Shown here piece by piece: positions 1-6,805 of a DNA stretch of 20,519 nt. The translations under genes were made by a program, and so were the position numbers. Location: positions 1 to 20,519 of IMG/VR virus record IMGVR_UViG_3300035184_000417. One strand, given 5' to 3'. Each line of letters opens with the position of its first letter. Within the stretch, counting starts at the first letter, position 1. The notes beneath the pieces are model-generated. The model ran no database searches, had not been told where the DNA came from, and was given only the letters and a program-made list of their open reading frames with translations. This stretch comes from a virus.

Positions 1-127
1 CACCATCAGCATTGCCGAGTAAGGTATCGCTAAGATCTATAATAGATTGCTTAATTTCGTTTGAGTCCGCGTGAGAGTCATCAGACGAGTCTCTTAGTTG
101 ATTGATTACATCGTTTAATGTTGCCAT
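1..127 (-). CDS. Probable tail tape-measure or related structural protein, N-terminal fragment
   Basis: The frame opens at an ATG (125-127, minus strand) and stays open for 42 codons to the left edge, so only the N-terminus is visible. It reads MATLNDVINQLRD followed by an acidic, Ser/Asp-rich stretch and an amphipathic segment (SIIDLSDTLL). N-termini of this style, a short helix then coiled-coil-like sequence, are familiar from tape-measure proteins of T4-like marine phages, which span the tail-tube lumen and set tail length. The start lies one base after the stop of the upstream membrane-protein gene, so translation is probably coupled. Its position downstream of gp26 and the gp51-like frame fits the usual order of tail chaperones before tape measure. 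The assignment is an inference from position and N-terminal style, since almost all of the protein lies outside the window. Confidence 0.45.
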   Translation of the reverse strand, partial: MATLNDVINQLRDSSDDSHADSNEIKQSIIDLSDTLLGNADG

Positions 128-128
128 T

Positions 129-392
129 TTATTTCTTTGCCATCCATGTAGAAAAGCCCATAAAAGCGCCAACAGTCGAACCAGCCATTATGTAATACAT
201 TACTACTATATCGGTAAGTATTGCTAATCGGTCGACTGGTATAGCTGGGCTCAATACGAGAAGAGTTAAAATCATCGACGAAACAAGACTCGCTGTTGCC
301 ATGTTTCGTTGGGCTACTAGTTTACGACGGTATATGCGTAACTCGTCTGGACTAATACTATCATTTTTGTCTAAATCAATGTTTTCGTTCAT
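129..392 (-). CDS. Small two-helix membrane protein
   Basis: This 87-residue protein has a charged N-terminus (about residues 1-30, rich in D, E, R and K) and then two hydrophobic segments, roughly residues 33-52 (ATASLVSSMILTLLVLSP) and 60-82 (ILTDIVVMYYIMAGSTVGAFMGF), with a short turn between them. It ends in a basic tail (WMAKK). This predicts a hairpin in the inner membrane with both ends on the same side. The start lies just after the TGA of the gp51-like frame and the stop is one base before the next start, so it sits inside a tightly coupled tail operon. I do not recognise a named family. The size and topology resemble small holins or phage inner-membrane proteins, but nothing in the sequence establishes lysis activity, and a virion or tail-lumen role is equally possible. 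Confidence 0.75.
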   Translation of the reverse strand: MNENIDLDKNDSISPDELRIYRRKLVAQRNMATASLVSSMILTLLVLSPAIPVDRLAILTDIVVMYYIMAGSTVGAFMGFSTWMAKK

Positions 393-395
393 GGT

Positions 396-590
396 TCATC
401 GCCTACTATTATTACGTTCTTGAATCTTTTGGTTCTCTTCTTCAATATGTCCTGATAATAAAGCAATGTATATCTGTCTTTCCCACGGAATCATATCTTC
501 TATTTCATGCAATGAGTACTTATGGAACTGTACCATTGCAAAATTAGTTTTATAATAATTCTCTAGCGAATCATGAGAAAGACTTATTAG
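396..590 (-). CDS. gp51-like -1 reading frame, expressed as a gp26 frameshift extension (or as a 46-residue protein from an internal ATG)
   Basis: A 64-codon open frame lies in the -1 frame relative to the end of gp26, entered at codon CTA (588-590) and ending at TGA (396-398). It encodes a compact, well-formed peptide with LENYYKTNFAMVQFHKYSL, then EIEDMIPWERQIYIALL, then a charged C-terminus. That pattern resembles the short frame that follows gp26 in other T4-like marine phages, in the position of T4 gene 51 (a hub assembly factor). The first ATG in the frame is at 534-536 and would give only 46 residues, leaving the LENYYKTNF part untranslated. No ATG, GTG or TTG lies between the preceding in-frame stop and that ATG. 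Frameshifting from gp26 is therefore the simplest way to make the whole module, giving a 294-residue gp26 fusion. Homology to T4 gp51 itself is an inference. Confidence 0.7.
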   Translation of the reverse strand, partial: LISLSHDSLENYYKTNFAMVQFHKYSLHEIEDMIPWERQIYIALLSGHIEEENQKIQERNNSRR

Positions 591-1279
591 AAAAAATTCT
601 TCAATCCCTCAATCTTCAACTTATTATGTTCGCCACATTTCATACATTTGAATTCGTGCTCAAGTGTAACTTTTGGCATATCTTGTAGTACTTCGCTAAC
701 TAACTTCAACTGCTTTGCCGATAAAGATTCAATAAAATCTACAAGTTCAGTTGGAGTATGGTCTTCGGCCGCGAATATTTCATCATTAGTATAAATTGAA
801 TCAATGCACGCAGCTATCGTAGATATCTCATCGTTAGATCCGTCTTCGCTAAGTTTCTCAGCATCAGTTAACGATGGGAATTTTAAAACAACTCCAATGC
901 TATCATCGAGTTTTACTTTCAGTGATTTCGTAGTTTCGGTAACAGTACAATCATCAAGGTTTAACGATACTTCGTTCTGATGTCCGCACTTACTGCATTT
1001 AATTAAAACATCAGATGTTTCACCAACCGATTTAGATCTTGCCTTAATAAAAAGGTATTCAAAATCGTACATAGTCAATTTACTAACATCGACTTTACCT
1101 AGGGTGCATGATTTAATCAAATCCCTTGCAGCGCGAATCATCTGACCTTTATCTTCAGATTCTTTTGCAAGTAGTAACATCTTTTGTTCTTTTACCGTGA
1201 ACGGTTTATATTCGACGGACTTTCCAGTCGATGGTATTTTAGCTTTGTATGTTACGGTATTCAGTTTTGGTAATGCCAT
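587..1279 (-). CDS. 26: Baseplate hub assembly protein gp26 (tail assembly chaperone-like)
   Basis: This 230-residue protein begins MALPKLNTVTYKAKIPSTG, with VEYKPFTVKEQKMLLLA after it. This N-terminus is characteristic of gp26 of T4-like phages, which is needed to assemble the central hub of the baseplate; T4 gp26 is of similar size. It carries two CxxC pairs, C95/C98 and C212/C215, that could form a zinc ribbon, the second close to the C-terminus. The start has a Shine-Dalgarno TTGGAG about 7 bases upstream and lies 16 bases after the stop of the tube-protein gene. The protein ends at tandem stops preceded by a slippery heptamer, so a minority product is probably extended by 64 residues. 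The position, ahead of a probable tape-measure gene and with a frameshifted extension, parallels the lambda G/GT and P2 E/E' tail chaperones. The family is clear; the chaperone role is inferred. Confidence 0.88.
   Translation of the reverse strand: MALPKLNTVTYKAKIPSTGKSVEYKPFTVKEQKMLLLAKESEDKGQMIRAARDLIKSCTLGKVDVSKLTMYDFEYLFIKARSKSVGETSDVLIKCSKCGHQNEVSLNLDDCTVTETTKSLKVKLDDSIGVVLKFPSLTDAEKLSEDGSNDEISTIAACIDSIYTNDEIFAAEDHTPTELVDFIESLSAKQLKLVSEVLQDMPKVTLEHEFKCMKCGEHNKLKIEGLKNFF
590..610 (-). promoter_or_regulatory. Probable programmed -1 ribosomal frameshift site at the end of gp26
   Basis: The last sense codons of gp26 are AAT TTT TTC, followed by tandem stops TAA TAA. This contains the heptamer T TTT TTC (plus coordinates 590-596) in the X XXY YYZ phase required for -1 tandem slippage. 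A Shine-Dalgarno-like GAGGG (606-610) lies 9 bases upstream, an arrangement like the stimulatory element of E. coli dnaX. Slippage leads into the 64-codon gp51-like frame. I see no strong stem-loop downstream by eye. Confidence 0.65.
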
Positions 1280-1295
1280 TATTTACTCCAATCAT

Positions 1296-1805
1296 TTACT
1301 TTATATTATACTTATCATACGCAAAGGTGACAGTTAATCGCGTAATATCATTTTCAGTAGCATTGCTCAAATCATACGAATTCTGAATGATAGGGTATGC
1401 ATTTTCTAACTCTACAGTATATATCGCAGAATGTCCTTTCGTTTTATCATCAAGCTGAGTTACGGTAACGGTCGATTGATATTTATCTTTGTACTCAAGA
1501 ACGAATTCATCGTTGATTATTTCAGACATCCATTTATCAAAAAAGGTTTTTACTTTATAATCGTTAACCAATAAAAACGTCATTGAGACTGGATCGTCAA
1601 TAAGCGAGTAAGCAGCCTTTAACGATTGCTTATTCGCAGTGTAATCACTAGTTGCAATAGTTCGGCCTGGGAGAGTTACGCTTTCAGCCATTAAGAGTTG
1701 TGTCTCAGATAAACCTGCTCGACCGAACTCGACCTTCCATAAATTGTTTCTTGCAACTCCACCGCCTGCAGAAATAGCTCCTTTTAAATTGTCGATTGTG
1801 CTCAT
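1296..1805 (-). CDS. Tail tube initiator-like protein (gp54/gp19 tube family)
   Basis: I place the start at the ATG at 1803-1805 (169 residues, MSTIDNLKGAIS...). It has AGGAAA 5 bases upstream and overlaps the upstream stop as ATGA, whereas a longer 177-residue reading lacks such a site. The protein has the tail-tube layout: RNNLWKVEF opening strand, a LPGR turn, a VSMTFLLVNDYKVKTFFDKW helix segment, and a C-terminal NDITRLTVTFAYDKY strand. T4 gp54, the tube initiator, has matching elements at both ends (RNNMF near its start, a final VTFAYR-type strand) but is about 320 residues, so this version would lack its extra N-terminal part. gp19, the major tube protein, shares the fold and is closer in length. 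It probably forms a tube ring at the baseplate junction together with the gp48-like protein. Assignment to gp54 rather than another tube paralogue is uncertain. Confidence 0.65.
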   Translation of the reverse strand: MSTIDNLKGAISAGGGVARNNLWKVEFGRAGLSETQLLMAESVTLPGRTIATSDYTANKQSLKAAYSLIDDPVSMTFLLVNDYKVKTFFDKWMSEIINDEFVLEYKDKYQSTVTVTQLDDKTKGHSAIYTVELENAYPIIQNSYDLSNATENDITRLTVTFAYDKYNIK

Positions 1806-2389
1806 GAGTTTTTCCTCGATTCTGCCCATACTTTAGATTGAGAGGCTTTCTGAAATTGTTGTGTTGGAAGGAACGTTGCGATCTCCCACTCAGGCGGTTC
1901 AACTAAAACTATTTTTGAATTAATTTGTGCTGTAAGATACCGTTTAAAACAAGGACGGAAATACTTCATCTTTGATATACTCTTAAGCATCTGATAACTA
2001 ACTTTAAACCTTGTCGATTCGTCGTACCTTTTATTATTTGTAGCTTCAAGCAAACTATCAAACAATATTGCGCGCAACTTAGGTGGCAAGTAATGTAAGT
2101 TTAAACCATAAAATCCGTCTTTAGTTGGTTCAACCATTAACACCAATGGAAACGCATCGTAATAAGGCAAGGTCTTCCGATGTTTCGGGTCATAAAAAAA
2201 CATCATTAATGATCCGACTAAAGGCTTGTTAACTTTAGTTAACCGAGAGTCTTTTAATAATTTGGTCCTATTAACGTCCTTCATGCCTTTCAGACTATCC
2301 ATAAACCATTTTGCGGCCGCTTTAGTCCTCGGAGTCATCCCAGCCCTAAAAGCGTCAATCTGTATTTTGTCAAAAATCGAATCAGACAT
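1802..2389 (-). CDS. Conserved T4-like phage protein, function unknown (full-length copy)
   Basis: This 195-residue basic protein starts MSDSIFDKIQIDAFRAG and contains PRTKAAAKWFMDSL (about 20-33), FFYDPKHRKTLPYYDAFPLV (64-83), GLNLHYLPPKLRAIL (95-109) and EPPEWEIATFLPTQQF (164-179), ending in a KVWAESR tail. I recognise it as a protein carried in the structural region of many T4-like marine phages, but I know no established function; a head or tail structural role is a guess from context. Its ATG overlaps the end of the homing endonuclease gene by 8 bases, and the Shine-Dalgarno is weak. A TATAAATA element inside that gene, 61-68 bases upstream, could supply its own late transcript. It overlaps the next gene as ATGA. 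A truncated homologue of its first 47 residues lies upstream at 3198-3362. Confidence 0.8.
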   Translation of the reverse strand: MSDSIFDKIQIDAFRAGMTPRTKAAAKWFMDSLKGMKDVNRTKLLKDSRLTKVNKPLVGSLMMFFYDPKHRKTLPYYDAFPLVLMVEPTKDGFYGLNLHYLPPKLRAILFDSLLEATNNKRYDESTRFKVSYQMLKSISKMKYFRPCFKRYLTAQINSKIVLVEPPEWEIATFLPTQQFQKASQSKVWAESRKNS

Positions 2390-2978
2390 TATTTTTACTT
2401 AACCACCCTAAATAGAAATCTTTTGGTTGTTGCCCTGCTGTATAATATCTATTTATAATACCGTTAGTATACTTCTTCTTGCCTTTAATAGCACCAGAAA
2501 TTTTAGCCCGTTCTTCAGGAGTCCTATCGCGGCTATTATGATCATTTAGATGATTTTGTAATTTTGCTTTGTGTTCGTCGCTTTTAGGTTTTTTAAATTT
2601 TGCTTTATGTTCGGCACTTTTAGGTTTTCTATAATTTTTAACACTTTTCTTTTTAACGCCTGTTAATACTTTACTAAGATGGTCTTTTTGTTCTTGTGTC
2701 CGAAGCGAAGTATTACCTTCGCCACCATCTGCGATATTTAGTAAGATTCCTGTTCCATCGCACTTGCGTCCCCAATGGCGTATCAATCTTCTTTCAATTG
2801 CACATGCACCGACGTTTGTTAAATTGGTCTCGCAGAAATATATTTTTGATTTATCTTTAGGCGTTGATACTCGGCCATGGGGAACGAAGGCTCTTTTACC
2901 CTTTCCTTTACCGATGTAGTATGGTTTTCCAGATTTTTTATTAATGTACGCGTAAACGTAATATATAGTATTAGACAT
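2382..2978 (-). CDS. GIY-YIG homing endonuclease with NUMOD3-type DNA-binding repeats
   Basis: This 198-residue protein has an N-terminal GIY-YIG nuclease domain: a first strand YYVYAYI (in place of GIY), a second PYYIGKG (19-25), the conserved Arg at 29 and the catalytic Glu at 62 in AIERRLIRHW. Next comes a basic linker with repeats KPKSAEHKAKF (118-128) and KPKSDEHKAKL (131-141), then TPEERAKISGAIKGK, typical of NUMOD3 modules. The C-terminus (NGIINRYYTAGQQPKDFYLGW) resembles the DNA-contacting tail of phage-borne homing nucleases. All catalytic positions are present, so it is probably active. It is free-standing, not inside an intron, like the T4 Seg enzymes. It sits between a truncated and a full copy of the same gene, which suggests it brought flanking DNA with it. 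A late-promoter core (3045-3052) lies about 70 bases upstream. The recognition site cannot be read from the sequence. Confidence 0.9.
   Translation of the reverse strand: MSNTIYYVYAYINKKSGKPYYIGKGKGKRAFVPHGRVSTPKDKSKIYFCETNLTNVGACAIERRLIRHWGRKCDGTGILLNIADGGEGNTSLRTQEQKDHLSKVLTGVKKKSVKNYRKPKSAEHKAKFKKPKSDEHKAKLQNHLNDHNSRDRTPEERAKISGAIKGKKKYTNGIINRYYTAGQQPKDFYLGWLSKNNV
2450..2457 (-). promoter_or_regulatory. Possible T4-type late promoter inside the homing endonuclease gene
   Basis: An exact TATAAATA on the minus strand lies in the 3' end of the endonuclease gene. By T4 geometry, transcription would start near 2444, giving a leader of about 55 bases for the conserved gene starting at 2389. This would let that gene be expressed without translating the endonuclease. 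An exact 8-mer of this composition is expected a few times by chance in a window this size, so position is the only added support. Confidence 0.4.
2561..2632 (-). repeat. 36-bp direct tandem duplication in the endonuclease linker
   Basis: Two adjacent 36-bp units (2561-2596 and 2597-2632) differ at only a few positions. Each encodes one 12-residue KPKSxEHKAKxx unit of the NUMOD3-like DNA-binding region. The near identity at DNA level points to a recent in-frame duplication. Confidence 0.75.
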
Positions 2979-3011
2979 GGTAGCTGCTCTTTACAGTTAT
3001 TGGGTTTAGGG

Positions 3012-3038
3012 ACAGAGGTTGCTTCAACAGCCTCTTGT
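3012..3038 (-). other. Possible hairpin in the homing endonuclease leader
   Basis: A stem of 7 base pairs with one bulged base (arms 3012-3018 and 3031-3038) surrounds a 12-base loop, between the late promoter core at 3045 and the endonuclease ATG at 2978. It does not include the ribosome binding region and has no U-tract, so it is not a clear terminator. Leader hairpins that damp early expression are known for some T4 homing endonucleases; that role here is conjecture. Confidence 0.3.
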
Positions 3039-3044
3039 TCTGAT

Positions 3045-3052
3045 TATTTATA
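3045..3052 (-). promoter_or_regulatory. T4-type late promoter for the homing endonuclease
   Basis: An exact TATAAATA on the minus strand lies in the gap just after the stop of the 51-codon ORF (3056). The predicted start near 3039 gives a leader of about 61 bases before the endonuclease ATG at 2978. Its intergenic location and correct orientation support it, which would make the endonuclease a separately promoted late gene. Confidence 0.6.
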
Positions 3053-3055
3053 ACT

Positions 3056-3211
3056 TTAAGATTCTTGCTTCCTTTCTTGATCCTTCAACCACATCGCTTC
3101 AGCCAATTCATATCTTGTTTTATCTTTCATATAATACGCAGCATGCATTAAATCAGCTCTTTCGAGATAATGAAAGTATTGCTTGTCAGGTAATGTTTTA
3201 AATGTTAACAT
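3056..3211 (-). CDS. Small hypothetical protein (51 residues)
   Basis: The frame starts at ATG (3209-3211) and ends at TAA (3056-3058). It encodes a charged, helix-rich peptide beginning MLTFKTLPDKQYFHYLERAD, containing LMHAAYYMKDKTRYELAEAMW, and ending KDQERKQES. The start lies within the last codons of the truncated gene upstream, overlapping it by 14 bases in a different frame, and I see no strong Shine-Dalgarno, so translation may depend on coupling. The composition looks coding rather than random: it is balanced, lacks runs, and has an amphipathic helix with alternating charges. I do not recognise it, and it does not match the lost remainder of the truncated gene. It could be an independent small phage gene displaced by the rearrangement, or the tail of a longer gene that lost its 5' end. 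Confidence 0.5.
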   Translation of the reverse strand: MLTFKTLPDKQYFHYLERADLMHAAYYMKDKTRYELAEAMWLKDQERKQES

Positions 3212-3362
3212 ACAATGCCGGATCTTTTAATATATCTCGGCGGTTTACGTTATTCATCCCTTTTAGTTTATTCATAAACCATTGAGCAGATTGCTTTGTG
3301 CGTGGTGAAATACCTCCACGGAATGCTTCTATCTCGAGACTTCTAAAAATTGATTCTGTCAT
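3198..3362 (-). pseudogene. Truncated 5' copy of the conserved gene at 1802-2389
   Basis: The 54-codon frame starts MTESIFRSLEIEAFRGGISP and matches the start of the full-length protein at 1802-2389. By my alignment about 27 of the first 47 residues are identical, without gaps, up to LKD. After that the similarity stops and the frame ends at TAA seven residues later. The remaining 140 or so residues, including the GLNLHYLPP core, are absent. The start has a good Shine-Dalgarno (AGGA, 6 bases upstream), so the stub is probably still translated. Synonymous positions have changed widely between the copies, so this is not a recent duplication. It is more likely the remnant of the resident allele after a diverged full copy arrived with the homing endonuclease. 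It could alternatively be a functional N-terminal-only protein. Confidence 0.75.
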
Positions 3363-5556: not shown

Positions 5557-6805
5557 CGATTACGCTGGTAAGTTTAAGTTACAAGAGGCCTCGCTATCAG
5601 GCGGTGGAAAGACAACTAACATTGCAAATATTATAAAAGGATTTGAGATACGCGAGTCTATAAATTTAATGTTTGCTATTTATCGCTTCCAAGTACTTGA
5701 CGCAATAACATTACTAGAATCAAGCGAAGCTACTGGTTCTGAGACGATGTCAATTTCGTTAACTATGGATGATAACGATGATAAACTAAAAACAATAGAG
5801 TTAGTCGTTATTGGATATGACAGTTACAGCCGGCCTAGCAATCAATCACACTCATATACTATTACGGCAATTCGTAAGACTGCGTATCTTGCCGCAATAA
5901 AAAGAGTCAGTCGAGATGTAAAAGGCTCGGGCTGTTCAGTACTTCAATCTTTATATTCTGATATTGATAAAGACGGTGGCATCAACACTAAGGACGCTAA
6001 TGACGAAGGAAACTTTCGTGGTATCATTCCAAATTTAACATATCAAGAATCCTTTAATTATTTATTATCTAAGTCAGCAACTAGTAATGGCGGAACATTC
6101 TTTTTCTTTGAAACATTGTGGGATGGTCAGGTTTTAACTTCATATAAAAGCATGATAGCCGAGAGTCCAGCGCGCTCATATAAAATAACAGACGATGCTG
6201 ACACCTCTAATGGTTTGCAAAAAGATACCATTGAAAAGATTAAAACAATTAGCTCAAATATTGGAATGTCTACTTATCGTTCCTTTAAAGGTGGTGGCAC
6301 AACCGCAAGATCTCATACTATAGATTTATCGACAAAAGTATATGATGTTGAGTTTTTTGATTTTACGACTTTGGGATTACCGAAGATGCGAGAACAATAC
6401 ACTGTTGGGAAAAGCTTTAACGTTGCACCATTGGCTGATACTGAAGGCATGACTTATTTATTCAATCGGAATACATTGACTTATGATAATGCGTATGTTA
6501 ACTTTAACGATAACGCTCAAGTATCAGTTCCTAGGAAGAAAGCAATTCTTGAGAACATCTATGCAATGCAACATACGATTGATGTCGCTGGTGTTGAGGA
6601 TCTTGCTTGTGGGAAGACTGTTGAAATAACTATACAACAAGCAACTGATGCAACTGTAGTTGATATACACGTTGACACTATGTTAAGTGGAGTTTATTTG
6701 ATTACTGAATTGACTCACAATTTTAAATGGAACGGAACTTATTACGTAACGTGTAATATAAAAAGAGATTCGTTCCTCAATGATAACCCTGGAGGTTTAT
6801 TTTAA
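5546..6805 (+). CDS. 27: Baseplate hub protein, gp27-like
   Basis: This 419-residue protein is similar in length to T4 gp27 (391), the trimeric hub that carries the gp5 spike. The visible pattern is an N-terminal hub domain (FEIRESINLMFAIYRFQV, about 33-50), then DNDDKLKTIELVVIGYDSYSRPS, a helical middle with LTYQESFNYLLSKSATSNGGTFFFFET (about 163-190), and a final domain ending SGVYLITELTHNFKWNGTYYVTCNIKRDSF (about 381-410). That last pattern is the usual ending of gp27/gpD-type hubs. It overlaps gp53 by 11 bases, with AGGAAA ahead of the ATG, and touches the spike gene in a TAATG junction, so the hub and spike are co-translated. The assignment rests on domain layout, length and neighbours; T4 gp27 sequences diverge strongly. 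Confidence 0.8.
   Translation: MVNNDYAGKFKLQEASLSGGGKTTNIANIIKGFEIRESINLMFAIYRFQVLDAITLLESSEATGSETMSISLTMDDNDDKLKTIELVVIGYDSYSRPSNQSHSYTITAIRKTAYLAAIKRVSRDVKGSGCSVLQSLYSDIDKDGGINTKDANDEGNFRGIIPNLTYQESFNYLLSKSATSNGGTFFFFETLWDGQVLTSYKSMIAESPARSYKITDDADTSNGLQKDTIEKIKTISSNIGMSTYRSFKGGGTTARSHTIDLSTKVYDVEFFDFTTLGLPKMREQYTVGKSFNVAPLADTEGMTYLFNRNTLTYDNAYVNFNDNAQVSVPRKKAILENIYAMQHTIDVAGVEDLACGKTVEITIQQATDATVVDIHVDTMLSGVYLITELTHNFKWNGTYYVTCNIKRDSFLNDNPGGLF

Follow-up and report, generated by a model that had tools for sequence, protein, structure and literature searches.

Long-tailed phages 'except T4' were stated to share a widely conserved G-T frameshift (Atkins et al., 2016; PMC5009743), and the gp51 of cyanophages was described as having only ~20% of the length of T4 gp51, matching its C-terminus (Sullivan et al., 2010; PMC3037559). 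In this work we analyzed a gp26-like gene, encoding a putative short tail assembly chaperone, and the gp51-like reading frame adjoining it in a 20,519-bp virus record (IMG/VR record IMGVR_UViG_3300035184_000417; this whole stretch of DNA is referred to below as the window). A tail assembly chaperone frameshift in T4-like phages was reportedly published by Vladimirov, Gautam and Davidson in 2022 (Virology 566:9-15); the genes meant are presumably gp26 and gp51, in agreement with the homology found here. Chaperone frameshifting is already known for T4-like phages, and the phage of the window is a further, uncultivated case. Judging from its sequence, a programmed -1 frameshift very probably yields a short and a long tail assembly chaperone in the manner of lambda G/GT.

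The gp26-like protein matches the family PF12322 (T4_baseplate, gp26/gp51) over its full length, with 214 bits versus a gathering cut-off of 24.5. The 3' end of its gene reads GAG GGA TTG AAG AAT TTT TTC TAA TAA. All the elements listed in a preliminary description of this DNA, namely an in-phase heptamer, tandem TAA TAA stops, GAGGG 9 nucleotides (nt) 5' of the heptamer and a -1 frame of 64 codons, are present in the sequence (Table 1). The predicted fused product of gp26 and the extension has 294 amino acids (aa) with the junction ...NFF-LISLSHDSLENYYKTNF..., and the reading frames, together with the homology to T4 gp26 and gp51, predict short and long isoforms with a common N-terminal part.

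The gp26/gp51 junctions of relatives were compared in two samples drawn from IMG/VR: 80 contigs selected with gp26 alone and 80 with the extension alone, 79 of the latter including the end of gp26. The first sample was gathered with an alignment as the query, since the gp26 of the window as a lone query gave no loci; a mixed alignment of the extension was too variable to be used as a query. Both samples consist of the contigs that best match the window or its alignment and thus represent the near lineage, not all T4-like phages. An in-phase T_TTT_TT(C/T/A) starting no more than 16 nt from the gp26 stop was found in all contigs (80/80 and 79/79), so that the site conforms throughout to the X_XXY_YYZ pattern of -1 frameshifting. 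A homologous -1 frame is present in 159 of 159 contigs and extends at least 167 nt past the heptamer in every complete case, and in none of the 159 is the +1 frame open beyond 120 nt. Thus, both the heptamer and the -1 frame are conserved at these junctions, in line with the earlier proposal that a -1 frameshift joins gp26 to the gp51-like frame.

The layout of the window was also revealed in isolate and single-cell genomes, namely those of P-SSM2, P-SSM4, S-SRM01, S-SSM6a, S-CAM9, ACG-2014a and ACG-2014e, BUCT-ZZ01, Methylophilales phage Melnitz-1, AG-345-O18, Stenotrophomonas phage Moby, Desulfovibrio phage 7757 and Vibrio phages R11Z and VmeM-32. In each of them the in-phase heptamer is T_TTT_TTC or T_TTT_TTT, and the open -1 frame encodes a similar peptide; in Desulfovibrio phage 7757 the entire -1 frame is devoid of ATG, GTG and TTG. 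An in-frame fusion exists in T4, and one could imagine that the -1 frame is what is left of a gp26-gp51 fusion in decay, or that it stems from a frame error in sequencing. Both are hardly conceivable, given that isolate genomes and all 159 contigs, each assembled separately, have this layout, and given the strong purifying selection described below.

Codon usage at the site was studied in 132 loci dereplicated at 92% identity. The first Phe codon is TTT in all 132, as compared with 74% elsewhere in the gene (p = 4e-18; this and the other codon p-value ignore shared ancestry, which overstates significance). The base preceding this codon is likewise T in 132 of 132 loci, while Asn, Ser and Asp codons elsewhere end in T in 54-77% of cases. 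The run of 6-9 T's at the site (8 in Melnitz) might also allow RNA polymerase to slip, altering the number of U's and joining the frames at the transcript level. We regard this as extremely unlikely: 80 of the 132 loci contain only six T's, which is short for transcriptional slippage; the T before TTT TTT is kept in 51 of 51 cases though six T's are already there; and the selected 5' element, resembling a Shine-Dalgarno (SD) sequence, fits ribosomes, not RNA polymerase.

The -1 frame is under purifying selection. The ratio of nonsynonymous to synonymous polymorphism (pN/pS) is 0.24 for its codons 3-17 and 0.19 for codons 18-50, versus 1.1-3.8 in the other two frames (1.6-2.2 when compared with codons 3-17). 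The value of 0.24 for codons 3-17 was also obtained in 36 sequences lacking a start codon ahead of +40, which argues that translation of the -1 frame takes place before any usual start codon and that the frame is selected as coding without a start codon of its own.

These data bear directly on the possibility that the extension is a small gene in its own right (gp51), as it is annotated in many cyanophages, with translation starting by re-initiation or translational coupling once the stop of gp26 has been passed. An ATG at +2 to +8 past the stop in some relatives would suit such a gene. However, there is no ATG, GTG or TTG before +40 in the window and in 77 of 159 contigs (28/80 gp26-chosen and 49/79 extension-chosen), yet the upstream codons are under equal purifying selection. 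Moreover, the positions of start codons in the -1 frame are scattered among the contigs, and a separate gene would leave the invariant heptamer without a reason. In the window, the -1 frame has its first ATG, GTG or TTG at 536 (an ATG), within the conserved LENYYKTNF part, which bears out the earlier remark that no standard start lies ahead of this part; an SD-like sequence was sought before this ATG and not found. For these two reasons the open reading frame (ORF) of 46 aa beginning there is probably not a gene of its own. Altogether, a separately translated gp51 seems very unlikely.

It should be mentioned that public annotations shorten the gp51 extension or leave it out: ACG-2014a (L012, 2801-2896) is annotated with about 31 aa of it and ACG-2014e (L011, after 2711) with none, and in Melnitz-1 (L004, 2580-2723) the extension begins at an internal Met. 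Gene callers that require a start codon would be expected to produce such annotations.

The frameshift was earlier proposed to be stimulated by the upstream SD-like sequence and to proceed with no conventional downstream stem-loop, and comparison of relatives speaks for both suggestions. The conserved Glu before the site is encoded by GAG in 63 of 89 relatives versus 25% of the other Glu codons of the gene (p = 2e-18). Predicted pairing with the 3' end of 16S rRNA peaks at -16 to -15, reaching -7.0 kcal/mol versus -5.4 kcal/mol in synonymous resamples, and 85% of the sequences are at or below -5 kcal/mol of anti-SD pairing versus 59% of the resamples. In the window, the SD-like sequence is too far from any start codon for a role in initiation. 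The stimulatory element would thus be an SD-like sequence kept through synonymous choice. On the 3' side, RNAalifold revealed 0 consensus pairs in the downstream region of 20 relatives. When sequences are folded singly, the mean z-scores are -0.9 to -1.3 on the downstream side and -0.5 on the upstream side, with -0.55 in the window over the initial 50 nt; these values are too weak to claim structure. A downstream stem-loop was rejected on these grounds, and the alignment consensus does not contain the hairpin that the window may form about 50 nt downstream. Codon-level evidence for an SD-like stimulator acting without a 3' structure may be new.

According to the proposed mechanism, ribosomes translating the gp26 mRNA would meet T_TTT_TTC just ahead of the stops, where most of them would terminate and release the short chaperone of 230 aa. 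In a minority, held in place as 16S rRNA pairs with the upstream GAGG(G), both tRNA-Phe would slip back by one base and 64 further codons would be read, giving the long chaperone (gp26-gp51) of 294 aa. If lambda gpG/gpGT is taken as the model, the short form may coat the tape measure protein in many copies, and the few copies of the long form may recruit tail tube subunits via the extension.

Several points weigh against this interpretation. The more distant Se-J, VP-1 and K475 keep the -1 frame but have no canonical heptamer. In some relatives an ATG is located just after the gp26 stop (at +5 in P-SSM2), and a separately started gp51 is possible there. Finally, the support is computational, and the occurrence and frequency of slippage are inferred, as is the function of the extension. 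As to the three distant phages, Se-J and VP-1 (both Ackermannviridae) and Vibrio phage K475, they contain ATTTTC, GTTTTTC or CTTTTTG at the position of the heptamer, and TAATG overlaps are present in K475 and VP-1. These phages may use another joining or re-initiation mechanism.

T4 is organized in a different way. Its gene 51 lies beside gene 26 on the opposite strand, and residues 1-201 of gp51 correspond to PF12322 and are followed by the extension. The profile of computed fusions from the 132 loci aligned with T4 gp51 straight across the junction (6.6e-15, one sequence searched), and phrog_150 covers both parts (positions 5-232 and 236-277). At the slippery-site position T4 gp26 has G TTC TTT; the gp26 of Acinetobacter phage Konradin contains no heptamer. 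Thus, T4 itself appears to have no frameshift and to possess separate genes for gp26 (short) and gp51 (long, fused). The shortness of cyanophage gp51 would be due to frameshifting, this gp51 being the extension only. We slightly favor a scenario in which frameshifting in the cyanophage-type branch is driven by 5' SD-like pairing with no 3' structure, and in which the two-gene state of T4 replaced the frameshift after duplication. We infer that the T4 two-gene state derives from the frameshift state, and not the reverse.

The assignment of gp26 as a chaperone was also considered at the level of its fold. In the AlphaFold2 model (pLDDT 88.6) the N-terminal domain resembles the HK97 tail assembly chaperone 2ob9 (Z 7.5 over 83 residues) and YqbN 3klu (Z 7.0), presumably a phage-type tail chaperone; the next solved structure scored 4.7. 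Foldseek alone gave an E-value (E) of 2.9 for the model, and a sequence search of solved structures revealed no relative. There is moderate support for a chaperone fold of this domain as in HK97 gp13, moderate because Z values of less than 8 may stem from a common arrangement and the Foldseek result by itself is weak.

The genes surrounding gp26 follow a tail tube - chaperone - tape measure order with one small ORF interposed: a tail-tube-like gene lies upstream in the window (Table 1), and downstream, in the nearest relative, L102, an 87-aa ORF and then a tape-measure-like gene. At the place of the truncated gene of the window, the L102 product has 909 aa or more; it begins similarly and has matches to several tape-measure families (phrog_58, E 3e-17). 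The preliminary description had regarded gp26 with its extension as the counterpart of the G/GT pair located just before the tape-measure gene; the role and the gene order hold, while direct adjacency does not, an ORF of 87 aa lying between. The C-terminal part of the tape-measure-like protein of L102 contains a tandem repeat, SIMSMMPDPLGLKEMFGDDSS (5849-6188).

Table 1. Features of the window discussed in the text (coordinates in the window; all on the minus strand)
Feature	Coordinates	Strand	Remarks
Start of probable tape-measure-like gene	2..127	-	cut by window end; ~42 codons, MATLNDVINQLRDSS...
87-aa ORF	129..392	-	phrog_27150 (unknown); between chaperone and tape-measure-like gene; one also in L102 at this place
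-1 frame extension (cyanophage 'gp51')	396..590	-	64 codons + stop; phrog_634 E 1.3e-26; phrog_150 positions 236-277; purifying selection
46-aa ORF from first ATG of -1 frame	396..536	-	start within conserved part; no SD-like sequence
Tandem TAA TAA, 0-frame stops	584..589	-	directly 3' of heptamer
gp26-like gene, putative short tail assembly chaperone	587..1279	-	230 aa, ends ...GLKNFF; PF12322 E 2.7e-63; phrog_150 E 8e-68
Slippery heptamer T_TTT_TTC	590..596	-	phase fits tandem -1 slippage
GAGGG, SD-like putative stimulator	606..610 (GAGGGA 605-610)	-	exactly 9 nt 5' of heptamer
Tail-tube-like gene	1296..1829	-	directly upstream of gp26-like gene; phrog_45 tail tube E 1e-32
Intact gp2-like copy	1802-2389	-	versus L102 gp2: first 50 residues 54% identical, remainder 87%
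Homing-endonuclease-like gene	2382-2978	-	phrog_314 E 1e-9
51-aa ORF of unknown origin	3056-3211	-	between gp2 fragment and homing-endonuclease-like gene
Truncated gp2 5' fragment	3198-3362	-	78% identity to L102 gp2 over 50 residues

Besides the chaperone locus, we observed that the gene of the DNA end protector (gp2-like; 1802-3362, minus strand) has a chimeric appearance around a homing-endonuclease-like gene. It seems that gp2 was interrupted by this element, which supplied its own replacement 5' end, in a natural cleave-and-rescue-like manner.

The short cyanophage 'gp51' is most likely the frameshifted tail of gp26 and not a stand-alone gene, and T4 makes the equivalent two proteins from two genes. 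This reading improves gene models for an abundant group of marine viruses and offers a clean natural example in which to ask if the efficiency of frameshifting can be set by an upstream SD-like element alone.

Among the known systems, lambda G/GT has in common with the gp26 locus a short chaperone with a minor, -1 frameshifted long form and the order tail tube - chaperone - tape measure. The gp26 locus differs in the zinc-ribbon-like segments of gp26 and in the 87-aa ORF before the tape-measure-like gene; among the families searched, no sequence match to lambda G was found. The slippery sequence of lambda G/GT also differs from T_TTT_TTC. In Escherichia coli dnaX, an SD-like AGGGAG is located shortly 5' of a homopolymeric slippery heptamer, as in the gp26-like gene; dnaX also has a downstream stem-loop and gives a shorter product, whereas the gp26 site has no conserved downstream structure. 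The chaperone frameshift of Vandenendeviridae/Andersonviridae, as presented for phage Adele in the accessible part of the source (PMC12846349), resembles the gp26 site in its stop-free conserved -1 frame and in the T-rich site ending the short chaperone gene; it differs in having a GTTTTT motif, not a strict T_TTT_TTN heptamer, and that part of the source mentions no SD-like element. T4 gp51, the baseplate hub assembly catalyst, is composed of a gp26-like domain and a homologous C-terminal extension and is colinear with the predicted frameshift product, but is encoded in frame by a separate paralogous gene.
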